Shown: positions 31,743 through 62,900 of the stretch, one piece after another
Layout of the letters: every line of letters begins with the position of its first letter
How positions within the stretch are numbered: the stretch's first letter is position 1
Assembly (NCBI RefSeq): GCF_001651855.1
Contig: NZ_LNQC01000073.1
Span: forward strand, 1-64,000
DNA: 64,000 nt
Origin: Sinorhizobium americanum
Lineage (GTDB): Bacteria; Pseudomonadota; Alphaproteobacteria; Rhizobiales; Rhizobiaceae
Direction of reading: 5' to 3'
Notes under the pieces: generated by a model
Told to the model about the DNA's origin: nothing
The model's input: only the letters and a program-made list of their open reading frames with translations
The model's database searches: none
Program-made: the position numbers and the translations under genes

Positions 31743-33245
31743 TCATTCGGCAGCCATCGCCATTGGCGGCCCGGCCTTTTTTTTCCAAGGGGCGTCGTAG
31801 AGGTCCCAGACCGGGCTGTTGATCGCCAGATCCATGTCACGGGCGAAGATGGCGAAGCCGTCATAGCCGTGATACGGCCCGGAATAATCCCAGGAATGCA
31901 TCTGGCGGAACGGGATGCCCATCTTCTGCACCGGATACTTTTCCTTGATACCGGAGCCAACGAGATCAGGGCGGATCCCCTCGATGAATTTCTCCAGCTC
32001 GTAGCCGGTCACGTCGTCATAGATGAGCGTGCCTTCTTTAACGTAGTGCCCTGTGCGCTGATAGTCGTCGTTGTGGGCGAACTCGTAGCCGGTGCCGACG
32101 ATCTCCATGCCGAGGTCCTCATAGGCCGTGATGACGTGGCGAGGGCGGAGCCCGCCGACATAGAGCATCACGGTCTTGCCTTTAAGGCGCGGCCAGTACT
32201 TGTCGATTACCGCGTCGACCAAAGGGCGGTACTTGGCAATAACCGCCTCGGTCTTATCCTCGATCGTCGGTCCGAAATGCTTGGCTATCTTGCGCAGAGA
32301 CGCTTCGATCTGTGAGGGACCGAAGAAATTATATTCCATCCAGGGAATGCCGTACTTTTCCTCCATGTGCCGGCAGATGTAGTTCATCGACCGGTAGCAG
32401 TGGATGAGGTTGAGCTTGGCCTTCGGCGCCCGCTCTACCTCAGCAAGCGTCGCGTCCCCCGACCAGTTGCCGACCACCCGCAGCCCCACTTCCTCCAGGA
32501 GGATGCGGCTCGCCCATGCGTCGCCGCCGATATTGTAGTCGCCGATGATGTTGACATCGAAAGGGCCGGCGTCGAAGTCTACTTCCGTCTTGTCGAGGAC
32601 CCAGTCGCGTATCGCGTCGTTGGCAATGTGGTGACCAAGAGATTGCGAGACGCCGCGGAAGCCCTCGCAGCGCACCGGCACGATCGTCTTGTCGTGCTCG
32701 TCGGCCTTTTTGCGCGACACCGCCTCGATGTCGTCACCGATCAGGCCGATCGGGCATTCCGATTGAATGCTGATGCCATTGTTCAGCGGGAACAGCTCTT
32801 CGATCTCGTCTATGATCTTCTCCAGCTTCTTGTCGCCCCCGAAAACGATGTCCTTCTCCTGGAAATCGGAGGTGAACTGCAGCGTCACAAACGTATCGAT
32901 GCCGGTTGTGCCGACATAGTAATTGCGACGCTGCGACCAGGAATACTGGCCGCAACCGACCGGCCCGTGTGAGATATGGACCATATCCTTGACCGGACCC
33001 CACACCACACCTTTGGAGCCAGCATAGGCGCAGCCGCGGATCGTCATCACGCCGGGAATCGACTTGATATTCGACTTGACGTCGCATTCGGAAAGGATCT
33101 CTCCCTCCTTGCCGGCCTCGTCTCCGCTTTTCGCGACGCTCAGGTGCTTCTTGCGGCGCTTTGCCGCCTTGTCTGGATAACGCGACAGCACCTGCTCGAT
33201 AAGCTTCTCATTGAGAGCGCCGTCATTCTCATGGTCGAGGCTCAT
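31743..33245 (-). CDS. nifD: Nitrogenase MoFe protein alpha subunit
   Basis: 500 residues. P-cluster cysteines sit in [28 protein letters not shown] and [15 protein letters not shown]. The FeMo-cofactor ligands are the Cys in LIHCYRSMN and the His in MHSWDYSGP, and the nearby [10 protein letters not shown] region is intact. It starts with [14 protein letters not shown], with a good AAAGGG site upstream, about 110 bp after nifH. Confidence 0.97.
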
Positions 33246-33354: not shown

Positions 33355-34602
<1,248 letters not shown>

Positions 34603-43451: not shown

Positions 43452-43562
43452 TTCAAAAGTTGTGCCAACAGATCAAGGACATTGTTTTTTCGATGTACTC
43501 GGCTGCTTGAACGAGAGCGTGGCCTGACCGTGGGCGAACATCAGCGTGTCAGATACCTGACA
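43452..43562 (-). promoter_or_regulatory. NifA / sigma-54 promoter of the peroxidase-like gene
   Basis: The minus strand reads TTGGCACAACTTTTGAA (43452-43468), 55 bp before the ATG at 43397. TGTCAGATACCTGACA (43547-43562), a symmetrical NifA site, lies about 80 bp further upstream. Confidence 0.85.
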
Positions 43563-45606: not shown

Positions 45607-45711
45607 GTCAAAAGTTGTGCCAACTGCACTACCTTCTTCCCGGATGGGTTCACGACTAAAGTGGGAGCAATCAAACAGCTGGCCGAACACTCCCGTGTCG
45701 CAGACTCGACA
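45607..45711 (-). promoter_or_regulatory. NifA / sigma-54 promoter of the peptidase relic / amidohydrolase unit
   Basis: The minus strand reads TTGGCACAACTTTTGAC (45607-45623), nearly identical to the box before the peroxidase-like gene. TGTCGCAGACTCGACA (45696-45711) fits TGT-N10-ACA about 75 bp upstream. Confidence 0.8.
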
Positions 45712-49139: not shown

Positions 49140-49730
49140 TCATAGCTCTGGTCCGTTCCGGTCGATCATCTTGGCGGCGGGCCAGTCGGAGAGCGGCCGG
49201 CTAACAGGCAGGACGATGACAAGTGGATCCTCGACGCGCGTCGGCGGCAGGTCGACACGCGCGTGTGGCAGCGTGGATCGTACGCTGATCCCAGACATAA
49301 CAGTCACCAGGCCGTGTCGGCCGAACCGCTCAATGTGTTTCCGCAGCTGGTTGCGGACGGTACCGAAAGCGAATGGAACTTGAAACTCGTGCAGTGTTGG
49401 AAGCATGACATGGATCGAATGGGCGATTCCGAGCCCTTCGAGATCTGGACGCACTCCATACAGGCCGAGTTCAGCCACGAGCAGGTCGACTCCGTCAACC
49501 TTGATGAAGCGGCGCAACAAGCCCATGTGAGCCGCTACGCCGCTGGAATCGTAGGCGATGGCACGAAGCTCGGGTCTTGCCCCTGCCCAGCTTTGACTGC
49601 CTTCGAACGGCTTCGCATTAAACGCACCTGTCGGTCCATAGGTCCTTCGAAAGAAGTCCGTGAGTTCGACATGGTCGGAGAGTTGCAACTCGTTTTCCCA
49701 ACACAATTTCCACTGCACGTTAGAACGCAT
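49140..49730 (-). CDS. nodA: NodA, N-acyltransferase of Nod factor synthesis
   Basis: 196 residues, the standard length. [77 protein letters not shown] and the ending [15 protein letters not shown] are diagnostic. It transfers a fatty acid to the deacetylated chitin oligomer. The ATG has AAGG at a good distance. nodB and nodC do not follow; downstream is a nodD relic. No nod box is visible in the first several hundred bases upstream, so how it is expressed is unclear. Confidence 0.95.
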
Positions 49731-52762: not shown

Positions 52763-52969
52763 ATGTATTCTGGCAACGATTCCTATAGCCCTGCTCTCTC
52801 ACCTGACGACCTCGACTTGCTCCAGAGCATCCTTGATGAGGAAATCAGGGTCCGACGCATTCCGATCACTAGCGACCGAGCCGATGAGCTTGCCGGAAAG
52901 CTCATCAGGCTGTTTCAGTCGGGAGTGAGACAGCCTGATGTCCTTCGTTTAATGATCAGGACCGGGTGA
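52763..52969 (+). CDS. Small hypothetical protein
   Basis: 68 residues: a likely helical, acidic to basic sequence (DDLDLLQSILDEEIRVRRIP, then SDRADELAGKLIRLFQSGVR). It resembles short conserved proteins of rhizobia of unknown function. The ribosome site is weak (GAGATGCGCA). Confidence 0.5.
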   Translation: MYSGNDSYSPALSPDDLDLLQSILDEEIRVRRIPITSDRADELAGKLIRLFQSGVRQPDVLRLMIRTG

Positions 52970-53166
52970 AAGCTCGCTCGTCCAATTGTGGCGGTGACGA
53001 CGCGCGCGTGGATAAACCACCGGCATCCCGCCCATTTAACCCGTAAGTTCCGGGCCTGACCCTTCGTCGGTTTTGACGAAGAGCGAGGCAAGACAGGGAT
53101 GACCCACGCCGGCATTGGGACTTAAGTAGTTTTCTCAATGTCGTTCTTCGCGGCCTAACCGAAAGG

Positions 53167-53480
53167 TCACCTGTACGCCCTGCGCCATCCAGCGGCCGTG
53201 CTTCTGTTTCCGAGCAGAACCACCGTTCGCCGTATCTCGTGTCGATGCGAGTTGAACCGTAGAAGCGCTGTCCCGGCACGTGGTAGATTTTCTCCCCGGT
53301 TTCGATGATGACATTTCCCTTGATATCGCAGGACCATCTTGCGACTGAGCGCCCTTGCCAGGAGGAGATGAGGTCTGGAAGAGTGAAACCACCGGATGCA
53401 CCAACCGCGAGCGCAGCGATCACCAGCCCGGGCGCTCGAAACGGCAGCGATCTTTGTGCGCGCCTATGGCGATAGTGCAT
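53167..53480 (-). pseudogene. Sunset-domain-like secreted protein, copy 1 (frameshifted end)
   Basis: It starts MHYRHRR with GGGGAGAGGG upstream, followed by a hydrophobic span (GLVIAALAVGASGGFTLPDL) and the domain CDIKGNVIIETGEKIYHVPG with YGERWFCSETEA. Before the expected last codons (GWRRAYR, ending at 53167) the frame shifts near 53190, so the present frame runs on into an unrelated tail. Paralogues are at 57077-57391 (intact) and 56796-56850 (fragment). The domain is found at the end of some nucleases and EPS-linked proteins; its role is not known to me. Confidence 0.7.
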
Positions 53481-53782: not shown

Positions 53783-54676
53783 TCATCGCGGGATGGAAAG
53801 CCTCAGAAGCATGCTGCCGGAGACAAGAGCGATGCCAAGAACCTGCCGGGGGCCAAGTTCATCTCCGAAAAAAGCTGAAGCGAAAACGCTTCCTGCTACC
53901 GGCACGAGCAGCGTCAAGTACGCGGCCCTGCCCACGCCGATACCGGCAATTGCGTAGTACCAAAGCCGAAACGCGACAGCACCGTTCAACACACCCGAAT
54001 AGAGAATAGCTAGCACATCGTTCCAGCTCGGAAGTGGAATTGATCCGTTAGGCACCACCGTGAAAATGAAGAAGAAAGGAAGGTTCAGGACGAAAGCCAA
54101 TATGCATTGCAACGCCACCCTACTGATTCCGGAAATTGAGTGGGATGGTTTTCCTGCCAGGATTGTTGCAAAAGCCCAGGCACTCGCGTTTATAAGAACC
54201 AGCATCGCACCCGCCCCGAAGCTGCTGCCACCGATGTACAACAATACGCCGACGACCGCTACGACAGGTGCAATCATTGCGAACGGATGGAGGCGCTTTC
54301 CTGACACAATCTCGATCAGGCTCGTAATGGCGGGCATCGTGTACATCAACGTCAGAACCGCCGGCGCGGGAAAAAATGCAAGAGCTATCACGTTGACCGT
54401 CGACACGACGAACCCGTTGATGACTGCAACGATGAGCGTGTTGTGTCGTTCTCCGTTTGACGCTGTTCGAAGCTCCCGGATGCTCTTAGGAAGGAATACA
54501 GCTATTGGAAGAAGGCCCGCCAGTAGACTGTAAAAGCGAAAGGGCCAAACACCCAGATCTTTGATTGCCTCGCGAGAAAGGGAGAACGCTGTGCTCCAAA
54601 TCAAGACAACGGCTCCCCCGGCCAGCAGGGCCAGCAAGGACCTCATATCAAAGACAGCTCTACTCTTCCGCGTCAT
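53783..54676 (-). CDS. EamA/DMT-family exporter of the pantocin-like cluster
   Basis: 297 residues with ten hydrophobic segments, two EamA repeats (ALLAGGAVVLIWSTAFSLSR opens the first; GAGAMLVLINASAWAFATIL opens the second). The ATG at 54676 overlaps the oxygenase gene by 17 bp; an inner ATG at 54646 is an alternative. It is the last gene of the precursor-E1-oxygenase-exporter operon, and likely exports the product or protects the producer. The EamA call is firm; the link to the peptide rests on context. Confidence 0.85.
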   Translation of the reverse strand: MTRKSRAVFDMRSLLALLAGGAVVLIWSTAFSLSREAIKDLGVWPFRFYSLLAGLLPIAVFLPKSIRELRTASNGERHNTLIVAVINGFVVSTVNVIALAFFPAPAVLTLMYTMPAITSLIEIVSGKRLHPFAMIAPVVAVVGVLLYIGGSSFGAGAMLVLINASAWAFATILAGKPSHSISGISRVALQCILAFVLNLPFFFIFTVVPNGSIPLPSWNDVLAILYSGVLNGAVAFRLWYYAIAGIGVGRAAYLTLLVPVAGSVFASAFFGDELGPRQVLGIALVSGSMLLRLSIPR

Positions 54677-55346
54677 ATCTGACGACTACTGCTATTCGTT
54701 TTGCCTTCGGCCGAGCAGTCACCATCGACACAAAATGCGGAATCAAGCGGGAGCTGGTATCAAAGATCAGCGTCTGAAACTCAGTTGGGACCAAGCATGC
54801 TCTAATCGCTTTGCGATCTTCGGTCTGCACCATCGTGAGGCCGCCGTGGTTCGGTTCCCACCCCTTCGTCAAGTTAAGAACGAGACCGAAACTCTGGCCG
54901 GGATCTGTATGCGTAGATAGAAACTCCCCTTCGTCAAACCGATTGAAGTAGAAGCGCCGGATGGCCGTGGCTTGTCGTCCTGTAATCTGCTTCAAGAGCT
55001 CAAACATGGGTTCCGACGACAAAAGTGTCTTCACACCCCAAAATACGAAGTTCCGGTTGTTGGTTGGGGTGTCTTCCAACCGCTTGAACGAATAGGAGAA
55101 TTTCCCCGCAGTGTAATCGGCGATTGCCAGTTCGTGAGCAGCGGCTGCCCGGCTATCCTGATAGTAATCCGCCACACCATCTCGATTTTTGATGATTGCT
55201 GACCAGAAGCGATCCTCGATCCTCTCGACGCCCTCACCGATCCGAGGCAAGCCGGGCAGGAATTCGGATAAGTCGAAATAGACAAATCCTTCGACGTCAA
55301 ACGTCTCGCGTAGCGATTCAATCTTGCTCAAAAAGCACCTCTTCAC
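54660..55346 (-). CDS. 2-oxoglutarate/Fe(II)-dependent oxygenase of the pantocin-like cluster
   Basis: About 228 residues. The facial triad is visible as LSTHTDPGQ (His-x-Asp) and RLIPHFVSMV (distal His), with Arg in ARPKAKRIAVV placed for 2-oxoglutarate. It looks like the prolyl-4-hydroxylase branch. Its start overlaps the end of the E1-like gene by 29 bp; a TTG at 55331 (LSKIES) behind GAGG is an alternative start. In the pantocin A pathway a hydroxylase of this type (PaaB) follows the E1-like enzyme, so peptide hydroxylation is the expected job. Confidence 0.83.
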   Translation of the reverse strand: MKRCFLSKIESLRETFDVEGFVYFDLSEFLPGLPRIGEGVERIEDRFWSAIIKNRDGVADYYQDSRAAAAHELAIADYTAGKFSYSFKRLEDTPTNNRNFVFWGVKTLLSSEPMFELLKQITGRQATAIRRFYFNRFDEGEFLSTHTDPGQSFGLVLNLTKGWEPNHGGLTMVQTEDRKAIRACLVPTEFQTLIFDTSSRLIPHFVSMVTARPKAKRIAVVVRYDAEE

Positions 55347-56442
55347 GCGTTGCGTATGTCCTTAACGACATGTGGAATCGCTTCCCCACGAGGTTGCAGT
55401 TGTCGTACTTTGTAATAAGTTTCAGGACCTGGTCGGCTGCAAGACCTGCCATTACCGCCAACGATGGTGAGCTTTGCCACGCGTTGACGCTGCGATTGCC
55501 GTTGGCGAATTCATTTTTCAGCCGGGCTTCCTGGAAGCTTCTGACCAGTGCGTCATCACTATAGAATCGGTCTTGCGAAATGCGCCGCAGGTCTTCGAAT
55601 GAGGGGTGGCTGCCGTCATTAAGATAAATTGGACCGACCGATATATCGAGCGGGTCACCGCCAAGTTCGATCACCGGGATCTGTCGATCGCGAGCGATCT
55701 CGTGGACTATCCTCTCGACGCTGTCCTTGCGATAGTACCCCAAGCTCGCCCAAGCCAGAATTGCAACGGTAACTCCTTTCAGCAGCTCTCCCAAGCGAAC
55801 ACGATCCGGTAGGGCAAACTCGTAGAAGGGTTCGACGCGAACATGCGGATTATGTTTCCGAACGTTTGCGGCCGCGGCATCTACTTTTCGTGCCCCAAGA
55901 TCAGTGGTGTTGTAGAGAACCTGGCGATTGAGATTGGAAAGCTCGACATCGTCCCCATCCACGATCCGCAATGTGCCGATCCCCGATCGTGCAAGGAGGA
56001 GGGAGCACCACGTTCCCCAACCCCCCATTCCCAACACGAGCACACGGGCCTGCTTTAACCGCTCTTGATAGGCTGTCGCATTATCCACTCGATCTTCGTC
56101 GATGAGTGAGAATTGCAGCATCTGCCTGTCGTAGCGCTCGATCTCCTCTGAGCTCAGCAAGCTGGAAAATCGGGAGCTCTCTTCAATAAGTCCGAAGCCA
56201 GCAAGAGCTGAGACAAAATCGTGCACGTCACCGTCCGTGACGTCGTAATGTTCTGCCTTAAGCTCCTTCAGTATCCTCGGCATTGTATGCTCGCCGTCTA
56301 GTCTCGAAAGCACAACTGCAACCCAAGGCGGAGGAGACTGGATGATCTTTGATTTTCCGGGTATTTCACCGATGCAAATGCTCCCGTCCTCTGCTACCAG
56401 AACATGGTGGGACCGCTTTAATAAGGGTTTTGCATACTCCAC
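55318..56442 (-). CDS. ThiF/MccB-type E1-like peptide-modifying enzyme (PaaA-like)
   Basis: 374 residues. Residues 1-110 form a winged-helix, RRE-like peptide-recognition region (MPRILKELKAEHYDVTDGDV, FVSALAGFGLIEES). From about 130 comes an E1-type adenylation domain: RVLVLGMGGWGTWCSLLLAR (nucleotide loop), IVDGDDVELSNLNRQVLYN and RKVDAAAANVRKHNPHVRVE; WASLGYYRKDS and SVNAWQSSPSLAVMAGLAAD are also E1-like. There is no CxxC zinc pair. Start GTG at 56442 behind GCGAGG. PaaA of pantocin A, a MccB relative, dehydrates two neighbouring glutamates in its precursor; the adjacent peptide gene has such a Glu-Glu pair. MccB-type AMP transfer is the alternative. Confidence 0.85.
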   Translation of the reverse strand: MEYAKPLLKRSHHVLVAEDGSICIGEIPGKSKIIQSPPPWVAVVLSRLDGEHTMPRILKELKAEHYDVTDGDVHDFVSALAGFGLIEESSRFSSLLSSEEIERYDRQMLQFSLIDEDRVDNATAYQERLKQARVLVLGMGGWGTWCSLLLARSGIGTLRIVDGDDVELSNLNRQVLYNTTDLGARKVDAAAANVRKHNPHVRVEPFYEFALPDRVRLGELLKGVTVAILAWASLGYYRKDSVERIVHEIARDRQIPVIELGGDPLDISVGPIYLNDGSHPSFEDLRRISQDRFYSDDALVRSFQEARLKNEFANGNRSVNAWQSSPSLAVMAGLAADQVLKLITKYDNCNLVGKRFHMSLRTYATREEVLFEQD

Positions 56443-56456
56443 GAGATGCCTCGCTC

Positions 56457-56491
56457 AAAAGGAAGGGCGAAGTCGCGCATTGACTTCGCCC
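56457..56491 (-). terminator. Attenuator-like hairpin between precursor and E1 genes
   Basis: A perfect 10-bp stem (GGGCGAAGTC, 56465-56474, paired with GACTTCGCCC, 56482-56491) with a 7-nt loop. On the minus strand it is followed by TTCCTTTT. It lies between the precursor stop and the E1-like gene, so it could give more precursor mRNA than enzyme mRNA. Confidence 0.75.
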
Positions 56492-56504
56492 CCGGATCTA
56501 CAGC

Positions 56505-56600
56505 CTAGACGAGGATAATCTTGCCTTTGCTGTACGTTGCGTCTTCTTCGCTGATAGCGGAGATGCGCTTTTCAAGGTCAGAAAATACAAGCTTCTTCAT
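56505..56600 (-). CDS. Pantocin-like RiPP precursor peptide, 31 residues
   Basis: ATG at 56598-56600 behind AAAGGAACGAG, stop TAG at 56505. The peptide begins MKKLVFSDLEKRISAIS and ends EEDATYSKGKIILV. As I recall it, the pantocin A precursor PaaP carries RISAITEENAMYTKGQ at the same place, so leader, Glu-Glu pair and follower residues all align. The modified core would be Glu18-Glu19-Asp20, where PaaP has Glu-Glu-Asn. The gene is too short for ordinary gene callers. Immediately downstream are the hairpin and the E1-like enzyme gene. The assignment rests on sequence resemblance plus gene order. Confidence 0.88.
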   Translation of the reverse strand: MKKLVFSDLEKRISAISEEDATYSKGKIILV

Positions 56601-56790: not shown

Positions 56791-56807
56791 TTCAAATATC
56801 GTGCCAG
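56791..56807 (-). promoter_or_regulatory. Sigma-54-like box upstream of the precursor peptide gene
   Basis: The minus strand reads CTGGCACGATATTTGAA, the same TGGCACG-N4-TTGA form as the NifA promoters in this window. It lies about 190 bp before the precursor ATG. No TGT-N10-ACA site was found 70-150 bp upstream. The box overlaps the relic of a sunset-domain gene, so chance similarity is possible. Confidence 0.45.
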
Positions 56808-56850
56808 TCGGGCCGGGAGCGTGGTAGATCTTTTTTCCCGTGTCGGTCAA
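56796..56850 (-). pseudogene. Sunset-domain-like fragment, copy 3
   Basis: The reverse strand reads LTDTGKKIYHAPGPTGTIFE, which matches the IETGEKIYHVPGQ part of the paralogues at 53.2-53.5 kb and 57.1-57.4 kb. Only about 20 codons are recognisable. Confidence 0.55.
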
Positions 56851-57076
56851 AGGCTTGAGTGGATGTGCTTCGAGGTGGCTCGCCGAACATGATCGTCGTA
56901 AAGCGGACAAATCCGACGCGACGCGTCCTCCTGCTCCATTCACGACGTCCCGATCTGTTATCGGAGCAAGCCACAGTTACGCCGGTGCTTGAAAACCAAA
57001 CCCGTTCTAGGAAGCGTGGCCGAGTGGTTCCAGCAGATTGTCCGATCTGCAATAGTCATCAATGGACGGCATCGCG

Positions 57077-57391
57077 TCACACCTTCGACTTCCGCCACCC
57101 CGCGGCCCAAGCCTCGAACTCCGAACAGAACCAACGCTCCCCATATTGCGGGCTGATCTTTGTCTGCGAGTAATATCTCTGACCAGGCACGTGGAATATC
57201 CGCTCGCCGGTGTCGATGCTGACATTGCCTTTGATATCGCAGGATCCAGCAGAACCGCCAGTCAGTGAGGCAAGAAGGTCGCCCGCAGTCATGCCCCCGG
57301 TTGCACCGACGGCAAGCGCGCCGATCAGCAGTCCAGGATAGGACAGCACAGACCGTTTCTGCTGACGGCCCCGGTGTGCGCGGTAACGCAT
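57077..57391 (-). CDS. Sunset-domain-like membrane-anchored or secreted protein, copy 2
   Basis: About 104 residues from ATG 57391 with GGAGAGGGGC directly upstream. It has a basic start (MRYRAHRGRQQKRS), a hydrophobic segment (LLIGALAVGATGGMTAGDLL), and then the domain CDIKGNVSIDTGERIFHVPG, YYSQTKISPQYGERWFCSE and EAWAAGWRKSKV. This is the intact member of three paralogues that surround the pantocin-like cassette. Function unknown; relatives of the domain occur at the end of secreted nucleases. Confidence 0.7.
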   Translation of the reverse strand: MRYRAHRGRQQKRSVLSYPGLLIGALAVGATGGMTAGDLLASLTGGSAGSCDIKGNVSIDTGERIFHVPGQRYYSQTKISPQYGERWFCSEFEAWAAGWRKSKV

Positions 57392-57486
57392 GCCCCTCTC
57401 CGCCAAGTTTCGGGTCATGAGGGTAAATGGCATCTCATGTTAGCAAAAGCTGCCCAAATGGGCTAATTCGCAGCAACGGGGAAAGC

Positions 57487-62192: not shown

Positions 62193-62900
62193 CTAGAGCA
62201 GTCCACGTGAGGGTCGGAAACCATATGCTGTAGCGCTGCTGCGAATTGAGAACAGCCTGTAAGCTAAGTCGATGTTGGAGCCCGGCCCCCACTTCACAAT
62301 CACCGATCTGAGATCATTCGCAGCCACTATGCACTCGAGAAGGTCATCGCGGGCATTGATGCCGAATCCTAAAAGGATTTTTCCTCCTTCCGCAAGAAAT
62401 GCTTGGGCCTCCGACAGAAATCTCTCAAGCTGGCCGTAGCCGGGATCAAATGCTCCGCGCTCAATGTCATCGCCGAATTCGAATTTTGCTGGAACGAGAT
62501 TCCAGGGGTAGTTCCAAAAAATAATGTCGAACTTCTTTCCAGGAGGAATATTACTGAAGATATCACTTTCGATTACGTCGACATTTTCAATATTGTTTTT
62601 TGCGGCGTTTTCCAACGTGTTCGCGACAGCCCGCGGATTGATATCGCAGGCTAGCAACGACAGCGCTCCGGTCTTTGCCAAAAGGAGACCCGGGAGACCG
62701 AAACCGCAGCCGATCTCCAAGATCCGCTTTCGCGCAAATGGAGGGAAGTTCTCGCTAAACCAACGCCAACTTTGGAAATCTTCGGGAGGAAAAACGCCTT
62801 CTCGCACGATCAGATCGAGCCCGAACTCCCGTATCTGCCGCGGAAAAGTTCTCTGTTGACTAGTCCTGAGTGTTGCCCGGATTTTATCGACTTCGCCCAA
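62193..62900 (-). CDS. SAM-dependent methyltransferase, PrmA/RsmC-like
   Basis: 235 residues. ILEIGCGFGLPGLLLAKTGA is the SAM-binding loop, LLACDINPRAVANTLENAAK the acidic loop, and DIIFWNYPWNLVPAKF carries NYPW in the place of the (N/D)PPY motif of amino- or protein-N-methyltransferases. The amino 60 residues (REFGLDLIVREGVFPPEDFQ) are less typical. The gene is A+T-richer than its surroundings and stands alone. Possible substrates are a protein glutamine, a base or a small amine; no choice can be made. Confidence 0.8.
   Translation of the reverse strand: MGEVDKIRATLRTSQQRTFPRQIREFGLDLIVREGVFPPEDFQSWRWFSENFPPFARKRILEIGCGFGLPGLLLAKTGALSLLACDINPRAVANTLENAAKNNIENVDVIESDIFSNIPPGKKFDIIFWNYPWNLVPAKFEFGDDIERGAFDPGYGQLERFLSEAQAFLAEGGKILLGFGINARDDLLECIVAANDLRSVIVKWGPGSNIDLAYRLFSIRSSATAYGFRPSRGLL

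Follow-up and report, generated by a model that had tools for sequence, protein, structure and literature searches.

The 64,000-nucleotide stretch of Sinorhizobium americanum analysed here (referred to as the window; contig NZ_LNQC01000073.1, positions 1 to 64,000) carries an apparently intact set of four adjacent minus-strand genes, paaP, paaA, paaB and paaC, which we consider likely to constitute a pantocin A-type cluster for a ribosomally synthesized and post-translationally modified peptide (RiPP), located on a rhizobial symbiosis replicon and probably switched on by NifA and RpoN. The first-pass annotation of this DNA had proposed a four-gene minus-strand operon homologous to the pantocin A system, starting with a pantocin A-like precursor gene, making a related compound and placed among nif and nod genes. 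All four genes were confirmed in the sequence (Table 1), nifH, nifD and nodA all lie within the window, the peptide exceeds the cut-off of the pantocin A precursor model, and the precursor model, the PaaA match and the gene order together support a homologous system with a related product. The family as such is already known; its location and predicted control are unusual, and the predicted NifA-RpoN wiring of a pantocin-type cluster is probably new. In a survey of the antibiotic clusters of Pantoea published in 2024, pantocin A clusters are described from Pantoea, Dickeya, Edwardsiella and Pectobacteriaceae; the string "rhizob" does not occur in its main text. A search of open-licence papers revealed, by title, none about a rhizobial pantocin cluster; a report elsewhere is possible.

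Precursor peptide and predicted biosynthetic proteins

The precursor peptide (MKKLVFSDLEKRISAISEEDATYSKGKIILV), whose ATG is preceded by AGGA at a distance of a few nucleotides, scored 40 bits (E = 1.7e-10) against the NCBIfam model TIGR04310 ("pantocin A family RiPP"; curated cut-off 35 bits), and the match is therefore more than a chance one; a Pfam profile search with the peptide gave no family match. The same peptide in S. americanum CCGM7 is already labelled "pantocin A family RiPP" by RefSeq. The leader motif FxxLxxRI and the core, as defined for PaaP (PMC12250964), are represented by F6, L9, R12 and I13 and by E18-E19-D20, respectively. The core thus reads Glu-Glu-Asp and not the Glu-Glu-Asn of pantocin A itself, so that the peptide is assigned to the family and is not predicted to give rise to pantocin A. 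According to the review cited, the core Asn is replaced by Lys, Ile or Asp in known variants, N18 being a tolerant position (PMC12250964).

The E1-like enzyme is composed of a recognition domain comprising approximately residues 1–90 (PF21475, PaaA-like_N; 115.9 bits) and a subsequent ThiF adenylation domain (PF00899; 130.8 bits). Its best match in the PDB is PaaA (5ff5; 485.6 bits, E = 7.4e-145, residues 4–372); the other matches among the best 60 of 72 distinct sequences reach at most 62.5 bits and cover mainly the adenylation domain. In the alignment with 5ff5, residues R174 and K187 of PaaA, at which mutations lower or eliminate activity (PMC12250964), correspond to R173 and K186. The PaaA of CCGM7 is 98.9% identical. 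Full-length PaaA is under strong purifying selection among rhizobia, as estimated from a ratio of nonsynonymous to synonymous substitution rates (dN/dS) of 0.06–0.12 in five of six Sinorhizobium pairs, the sixth pair having only three differences. In a tree of 18 rows, the 15 PaaA rows are separated (97/95) from a MoeB-type protein of the same genome and two other E1-like proteins, and the rhizobial enzyme is on the basis of this grouping a PaaA. The housekeeping ThiF/MoeB placement named in the first-pass annotation as one of the refuting outcomes was thus not found, with the qualifications that the three outgroup branches are very long, that one housekeeping MoeB-type protein was included and that L005, L012 and L014 were left out. 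Within the tree the rhizobial rows join Stenotrophomonas (82/79; branch not starred).

Homologues of PaaA, PaaB and PaaC are present in all 16 compared loci (the locus of S. americanum CFNEI 73 lies outside this set), the oxygenase always corresponding to the gene which follows paaA. The best Pfam match of the oxygenase is 2OG-FeII_Oxy_3, i.e. a 2-oxoglutarate (2OG)-dependent oxygenase family, whose score of 24.2 bits falls slightly short of the required 27, and a PDB sequence search with it gave no match; the iron ligand pattern HxD...H...R, consisting of HxD, a distal His and an Arg, is conserved in the alignable rows. The exporter matches PF00892 (EamA) with 105.4 bits. The functions of paaP, paaA, paaB and paaC in Pantoea have been reviewed, and an exporter of the EamA type confers resistance to pantocin A (PMC12250964).

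The 62-nt gap between the precursor and the enzyme gene contains a 12-bp stem-loop in the transcript with a folding energy of -25.3 kcal/mol (z -3.24), which was equalled in stability by none of 200 shuffled sequences. The structure recurs in BR816 (z -2.88) and CCGM7 (z -2.66), and a weaker one is found at the same place in Vibrio (z -1.75; 13 of 200 shuffles as stable). A self-standing terminator was considered and rejected: the structure is stable but was not listed by a terminator scan. It may instead raise the level of the peptide over that of the enzyme and is a possible tuner of expression.

Predicted control by NifA and RpoN

The RpoN consensus reads TGGCACG-N4-TTGCW, an A at -12 being known from nifH of R. 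etli and M. loti (PMC3538637). The predicted promoter of paaP has this nifH form with A at -12 and agrees with the -24/-12 pattern; the sequence at this place is CTGGCACGATATTTGAAT, starting 206 nt before the ATG of the peptide. The pattern TGGCACGN4TTGM is found four times in the window compared to 0.11 expected matches, a number reached in none of 100 shuffles, and the three other matches precede nifH (34336), an fdxN-type ferredoxin gene (24588) and an open reading frame (ORF) without NCBIfam match (21563). On symbiosis-type plasmids the ratio of the motif to its reversed form is 12:0 in CCGM7, 12:1 in NXT3, 7:0 in CFN42, 14:0 in R. gallicum IE4872 and 3:0 in S. chiapasense; on such motif-rich and control-poor replicons a match is therefore rarely due to chance. 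The element is present in all five intact rhizobial loci examined (four distinct sequences) and in 10 of 13 loci with decayed copies in Rhizobium (see below), and the -24/-12 block belongs to the best conserved parts of the upstream alignment. In a scan of the region ahead of paaA in 12 non-rhizobial loci, the strict element was found in none and a looser pattern in two.

Further upstream, a candidate NifA site of the TGT-N10-ACA type, which is expected at a distance of ca. 80–150 nt, was located. An exact site at -97 to -104 is present in five of 16 sequences (BR816, three R. gallicum and R. etli Mim1), one with a single mismatch occupies the same place in the window, CFNEI 73, CCGM7, NXT3 and IE4771, and none was found there in the remaining six; for nifH of the window, an exact site lies at -105 of its promoter. 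Moreover, nifA and one of two rpoN genes are located on the same contig, further along. Judged from these sequence features, the paa genes are probably part of the NifA-RpoN regulon. The idea of an action in symbiosis gains a mechanism through the predicted promoter.

Several observations weigh against the reading as a pantocin A-type cluster under NifA and RpoN. Genome-wide, the motif exceeds its reversed form only to a moderate degree (22 versus 9 matches). TTGA at -12 reads TTGG in six of the ten promoters of decayed copies, which may thus be weak or dead. In RefSeq's distributed table the peptide gene is not listed at CFNEI73 or NXT3. Finally, the NifA site of the window itself contains a mismatch, and sites with at most one mismatch occur in 29.7% of 2000 random 125-nt stretches of the window (exact sites in 1.7%), so that this site alone is not significant and the case rests on its place and on the relatives. 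The imperfect site and the frequency of such sites also favour a different, in our view rather unlikely scenario, in which a working pantocin-type cluster is expressed constitutively or in the rhizosphere for root competition and the -24/-12 sequence is inherited or fortuitous; the discussion of trifolitoxin and phazolicin as weapons against other rhizobia would be in line with such a role. However, a sigma-70-like promoter was found on neither strand between 53500 and 57100, and the -24/-12 block is retained in all four distinct intact rhizobial sequences. We therefore favour control by NifA and RpoN.

Two further observations concern promoters of this type. In Sinorhizobium chiapasense (L034:4008-4116) the same promoter and leader (79% identity over ca. 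103 nt) stand ahead of a methyltransferase gene, whose product is 84% identical to that encoded at 62193-62900 of the window, ca. 6 kb upstream of the cluster. In the window itself, additional -24/-12-like elements (TGGCACAACTTTTGA) are located on the minus strand at 43467 and 45622. Exact TGT-N10-ACA sites lie upstream of them (43547-43562 and 45696-45711), and the elements precede a 471-residue ORF without NCBIfam match and ORFs including an amidohydrolase-like gene.

Genomic setting, intact clusters and decayed copies

The genome (6.65 Mb, 82 contigs) contains a single match to PaaA-like_N. One segment of 3501 nt from the region matches plasmid B of S. americanum CFNEI 73 at 100% identity, and the G+C content of the cluster is 53.4% compared to 57.2% for the window. 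The four genes follow each other in the order paaP-paaA-paaB-paaC from 56600 down to 53783. With the starts of Table 1, the enzyme gene overlaps with the oxygenase gene and the latter with the exporter gene; RefSeq has later starts for oxygenase and exporter in CCGM7, which by offset are equivalent to 55331 and 54637 here.

Table 1. Position of the paa genes, their predicted control elements and nearby symbiosis genes in the window
Feature	Position	Strand	Characteristics
paaP-like precursor peptide gene	56505-56600	minus	31 codons + stop; TIGR04310
PaaA-type E1-like enzyme gene	55318-56442	minus	374 residues; PF21475 + PF00899, match to 5ff5
PaaB-type 2OG-Fe(II) oxygenase gene	54660-55346	minus	up to 228 residues; homology across compared clusters
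PaaC-type EamA exporter gene	53783-54676	minus	up to 297 residues; PF00892
Stem-loop (12 bp) in the transcript between precursor and enzyme genes	56463..56493	minus	folding energy versus shuffles
Predicted RpoN (-24/-12) promoter TGGCACGATATTTGA	56792..56806	minus	TGGCACGN4TTGM pattern, conserved in rhizobia
Candidate NifA upstream site TGTCCGCTTTACGACG	56894..56909	minus	TGT-N10-ACA with one mismatch, -103 from the -24 element
nifH	33355-34248		in window
nifD	31743-33245		in window
nodA	49140-49730		in window

The cluster is flanked on both sides by related small ORFs (52956-53480 and 57077-57433), whose homologues in relatives are annotated as thermonuclease (staphylococcal nuclease, SNase) family or ExoI-like. 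These SNase-like copies share a 75-nt repeat of 79% identity, and a third fragment (56813-56845) is positioned just upstream of the promoter. An insertion via direct repeats was considered in view of the flanking copies and rejected, as target-site evidence was not found.

The first-pass annotation had also suggested a search of rhizobial genomes for the same four-gene order, and paaP-paaA-paaB-paaC indeed recurs in further rhizobia as well as in gammaproteobacteria. Intact rhizobial clusters are found in S. americanum CFNEI 73, S. americanum CCGM7, S. fredii NXT3 and Ensifer BR816 (L037 is part of NXT3 and L038 does not differ from BR816 over the compared stretch, so that neither was counted again). 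Twelve further loci stem from Stenotrophomonas, Photorhabdus, Providencia, Enterobacter, Pantoea, Edwardsiella, Aquabacterium, Pseudomonas and Shewanella, in addition to Vibrio maritimus, whose peptide is named "pantocin A family RiPP" by RefSeq. For Providencia rettgeri (L012) the PaaA match covers residues 128–374 only, and this PaaA may be incomplete. According to a motif search, a precursor-like peptide adjoins paaA in all 17 other loci examined. Its core is EED in the four rhizobial loci and Stenotrophomonas, EEN in Pantoea, Enterobacter, Edwardsiella, Shewanella and Vibrio, EEK in three Photorhabdus, P. burhodogranariea and Pseudomonas, EEI in P. rettgeri and EES in Aquabacterium. The rhizobial systems hence share the EED core with Stenotrophomonas, the nearest neighbour of their PaaA. 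Within the bacterial family, PF21475 matches occur in three of 247 genomes including the present one (two of them above cut-off), TIGR04310 exclusively in the present one of the 247, and a full PaaA in three of 33 genomes of the genus, again including the present one; two of these three are L037 and L038.

Decayed copies are present in 18 Rhizobium plasmid records, mostly with Phaseolus as source, in which PaaA is reduced to residues 1 to ca. 89. In one related genus (that of G194), 148 species genomes were covered, and 16 of them contain the N-terminal domain, with open frames of 85–191 residues, so that no full-length PaaA exists in these 16 genomes. Among the 13 loci fetched (L016:5938-6273, L017:6001-6273 and L023-L033, on Rhizobium symbiosis plasmids), the fragment, a stand-alone PaaA-type recognition domain of ca. 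90 residues, has an open frame up to a common stop in 11, carries a frameshift in one and lacks its start in another. The neighbouring peptide gene is altered in all 13: in R. gallicum IE4872 and R602 its frame is lost after EEDA, and elsewhere it is changed or replaced. In addition, nifH is annotated 0.6 to 1.1 kb downstream of the relic in seven of the 13. Behind the stop, the compared rows resemble each other in sequence, as would be expected from a single old deletion.

Despite the decay of the precursor gene, the fragment appears to be constrained. Third codon positions differ most in all 15 pairs of the six Rhizobium loci used for codon-position analysis and neutral simulation, and the preceding leader shows 8–52 gap columns per pair; the absence of a net gap in the frame of the fragment was read from the translations. 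Its dN/dS is 0.07–0.58 with a median of 0.30 over 27 pairs, 11 of which are at or below 0.28, compared to a simulated neutral median of 0.66–0.86 and a first percentile of 0.28–0.37. The dN/dS set contains eight of the 13 Rhizobium loci, L030 (frameshift), L033 (start lost) and some near-identical rows being excluded, and one codon was removed from the Rhizobium rows for alignment with the Sinorhizobium rows; the pairs share ancestry and are hence not independent. These data provide good but not final evidence that the stand-alone recognition domain is under selection. A second RiPP-type locus is indicated near the relic in the Rhizobium strains NXC12 and NXC14 (L031:6075-6264 and L032:4871-6264) by a Nif11-like leader peptide gene, which in NXC14 is followed by a radical SAM RiPP epimerase gene.

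Proposed function and relation to known systems

Consistent with these data we propose the following scenario. Low-oxygen conditions would activate NifA, and the operon would be transcribed from the predicted -24/-12 promoter. As deduced from PaaP, the 31-residue precursor might bind with FxxLxxRI to the recognition domain of PaaA, which, in analogy to the characterised enzyme, would use ATP to activate the core glutamates E18 and E19 and to build a bicyclic core. PaaB might subsequently desaturate this core, a step which is presumed even for pantocin A, putative peptidases would trim the product, and PaaC presumably exports it and protects the producer. The predicted product would carry Asp where pantocin A has Asn. 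By analogy, it is most likely a small peptide-like antimetabolite imported via the peptide transporters of neighbouring bacteria, its target perhaps being again an enzyme of amino-acid biosynthesis; a histidine antagonism would be carried over from pantocin A, from which the product differs in the core residue (Asp for Asn). Pantocin A is taken up via peptide transporters (PMC12250964), and phazolicin enters S. meliloti through BacA and YejABEF (PMC10128002), which makes a rhizobial target possible.

The predicted expression in nodules would also be compatible with a product that is not a toxin and instead acts on the plant or on other bacteroids as signal or effector, its target altered by the core Asp, which is shared by rhizobia and Stenotrophomonas and replaced by Asn, Lys, Ile or Ser at other loci. 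We consider this improbable, as an exporter of the pantocin A-resistance type is retained and N18 is tolerant with N-to-D variants known, so that a new role is not implied. That the E1-like gene is a ThiF/MoeB housekeeping gene next to a chance ORF can practically be dismissed, since, despite the ThiF domain common to the enzyme and the MoeB/ThiF models, all equivalog scores are far under their cut-offs (best 99.9 bits versus 266), and the recognition domain, the grouping with PaaA and the score in the peptide model speak against it.

Beyond the preferred reading of a pantocin A-type cluster under NifA and RpoN, we tentatively speculate, as a possible and not a probable extension, that nitrogen-fixing nodule bacteria release the NifA-controlled antimetabolite at the time of nitrogenase induction and thereby police the nodule against non-fixing or foreign bacteria, and that the recognition domain left in Rhizobium now has a role of its own, e.g. 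as a peptide-binding immunity or control factor. Should the promoter function in the predicted manner, a compact antibiotic operon would be under the nitrogen-fixation switch in a symbiont that nodulates bean and Vachellia, offering a direct way to ask whether antimetabolites are employed by nodule bacteria when other strains co-infect. Owing to the decayed copies on the symbiosis plasmids of bean Rhizobium, strains that have the enzyme can be compared with natural counterparts that lack it, and the stand-alone recognition domain lends itself to study as a clean small protein. Worth bench work are, in our opinion, the likely NifA-RpoN membership and this domain of bean Rhizobium.

The cluster corresponds to the paaPABC genes of Pantoea in gene order, in the precursor of 30–31 residues with FxxLxxRI leader and EE core, in the 2OG oxygenase and the EamA exporter, and in a PaaA with recognition domain that is 57% identical to the Pantoea brenneri protein. 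It differs in the EED instead of EEN core, in the lower identity of PaaB (ca. 36%) and PaaC (ca. 30%) to those of Pantoea brenneri, and in its location on an alphaproteobacterial symbiosis replicon with a predicted NifA/RpoN promoter. The nearest non-rhizobial relative, Stenotrophomonas rhizophila (L002), shares the EED core with identities of 65% (PaaA), 53% (PaaB) and 47% (PaaC), whereas the strict -24/-12 element was not found in the 700 nt upstream of its paaA. S. americanum CCGM7 (WP_072597249.1 and neighbours) contains the same cluster with no substantive difference. MccB of the microcin C system is likewise an E1-like enzyme with a peptide recognition domain (PMC12250964), but only its adenylation domain aligns (residues 98–204; 60 bits compared to 485.6 bits for PaaA). 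Trifolitoxin and phazolicin are also ribosomal peptide antibiotics of rhizobia; they are, however, azol(in)e-modified peptides and hence the products of a different chemistry and different enzymes.

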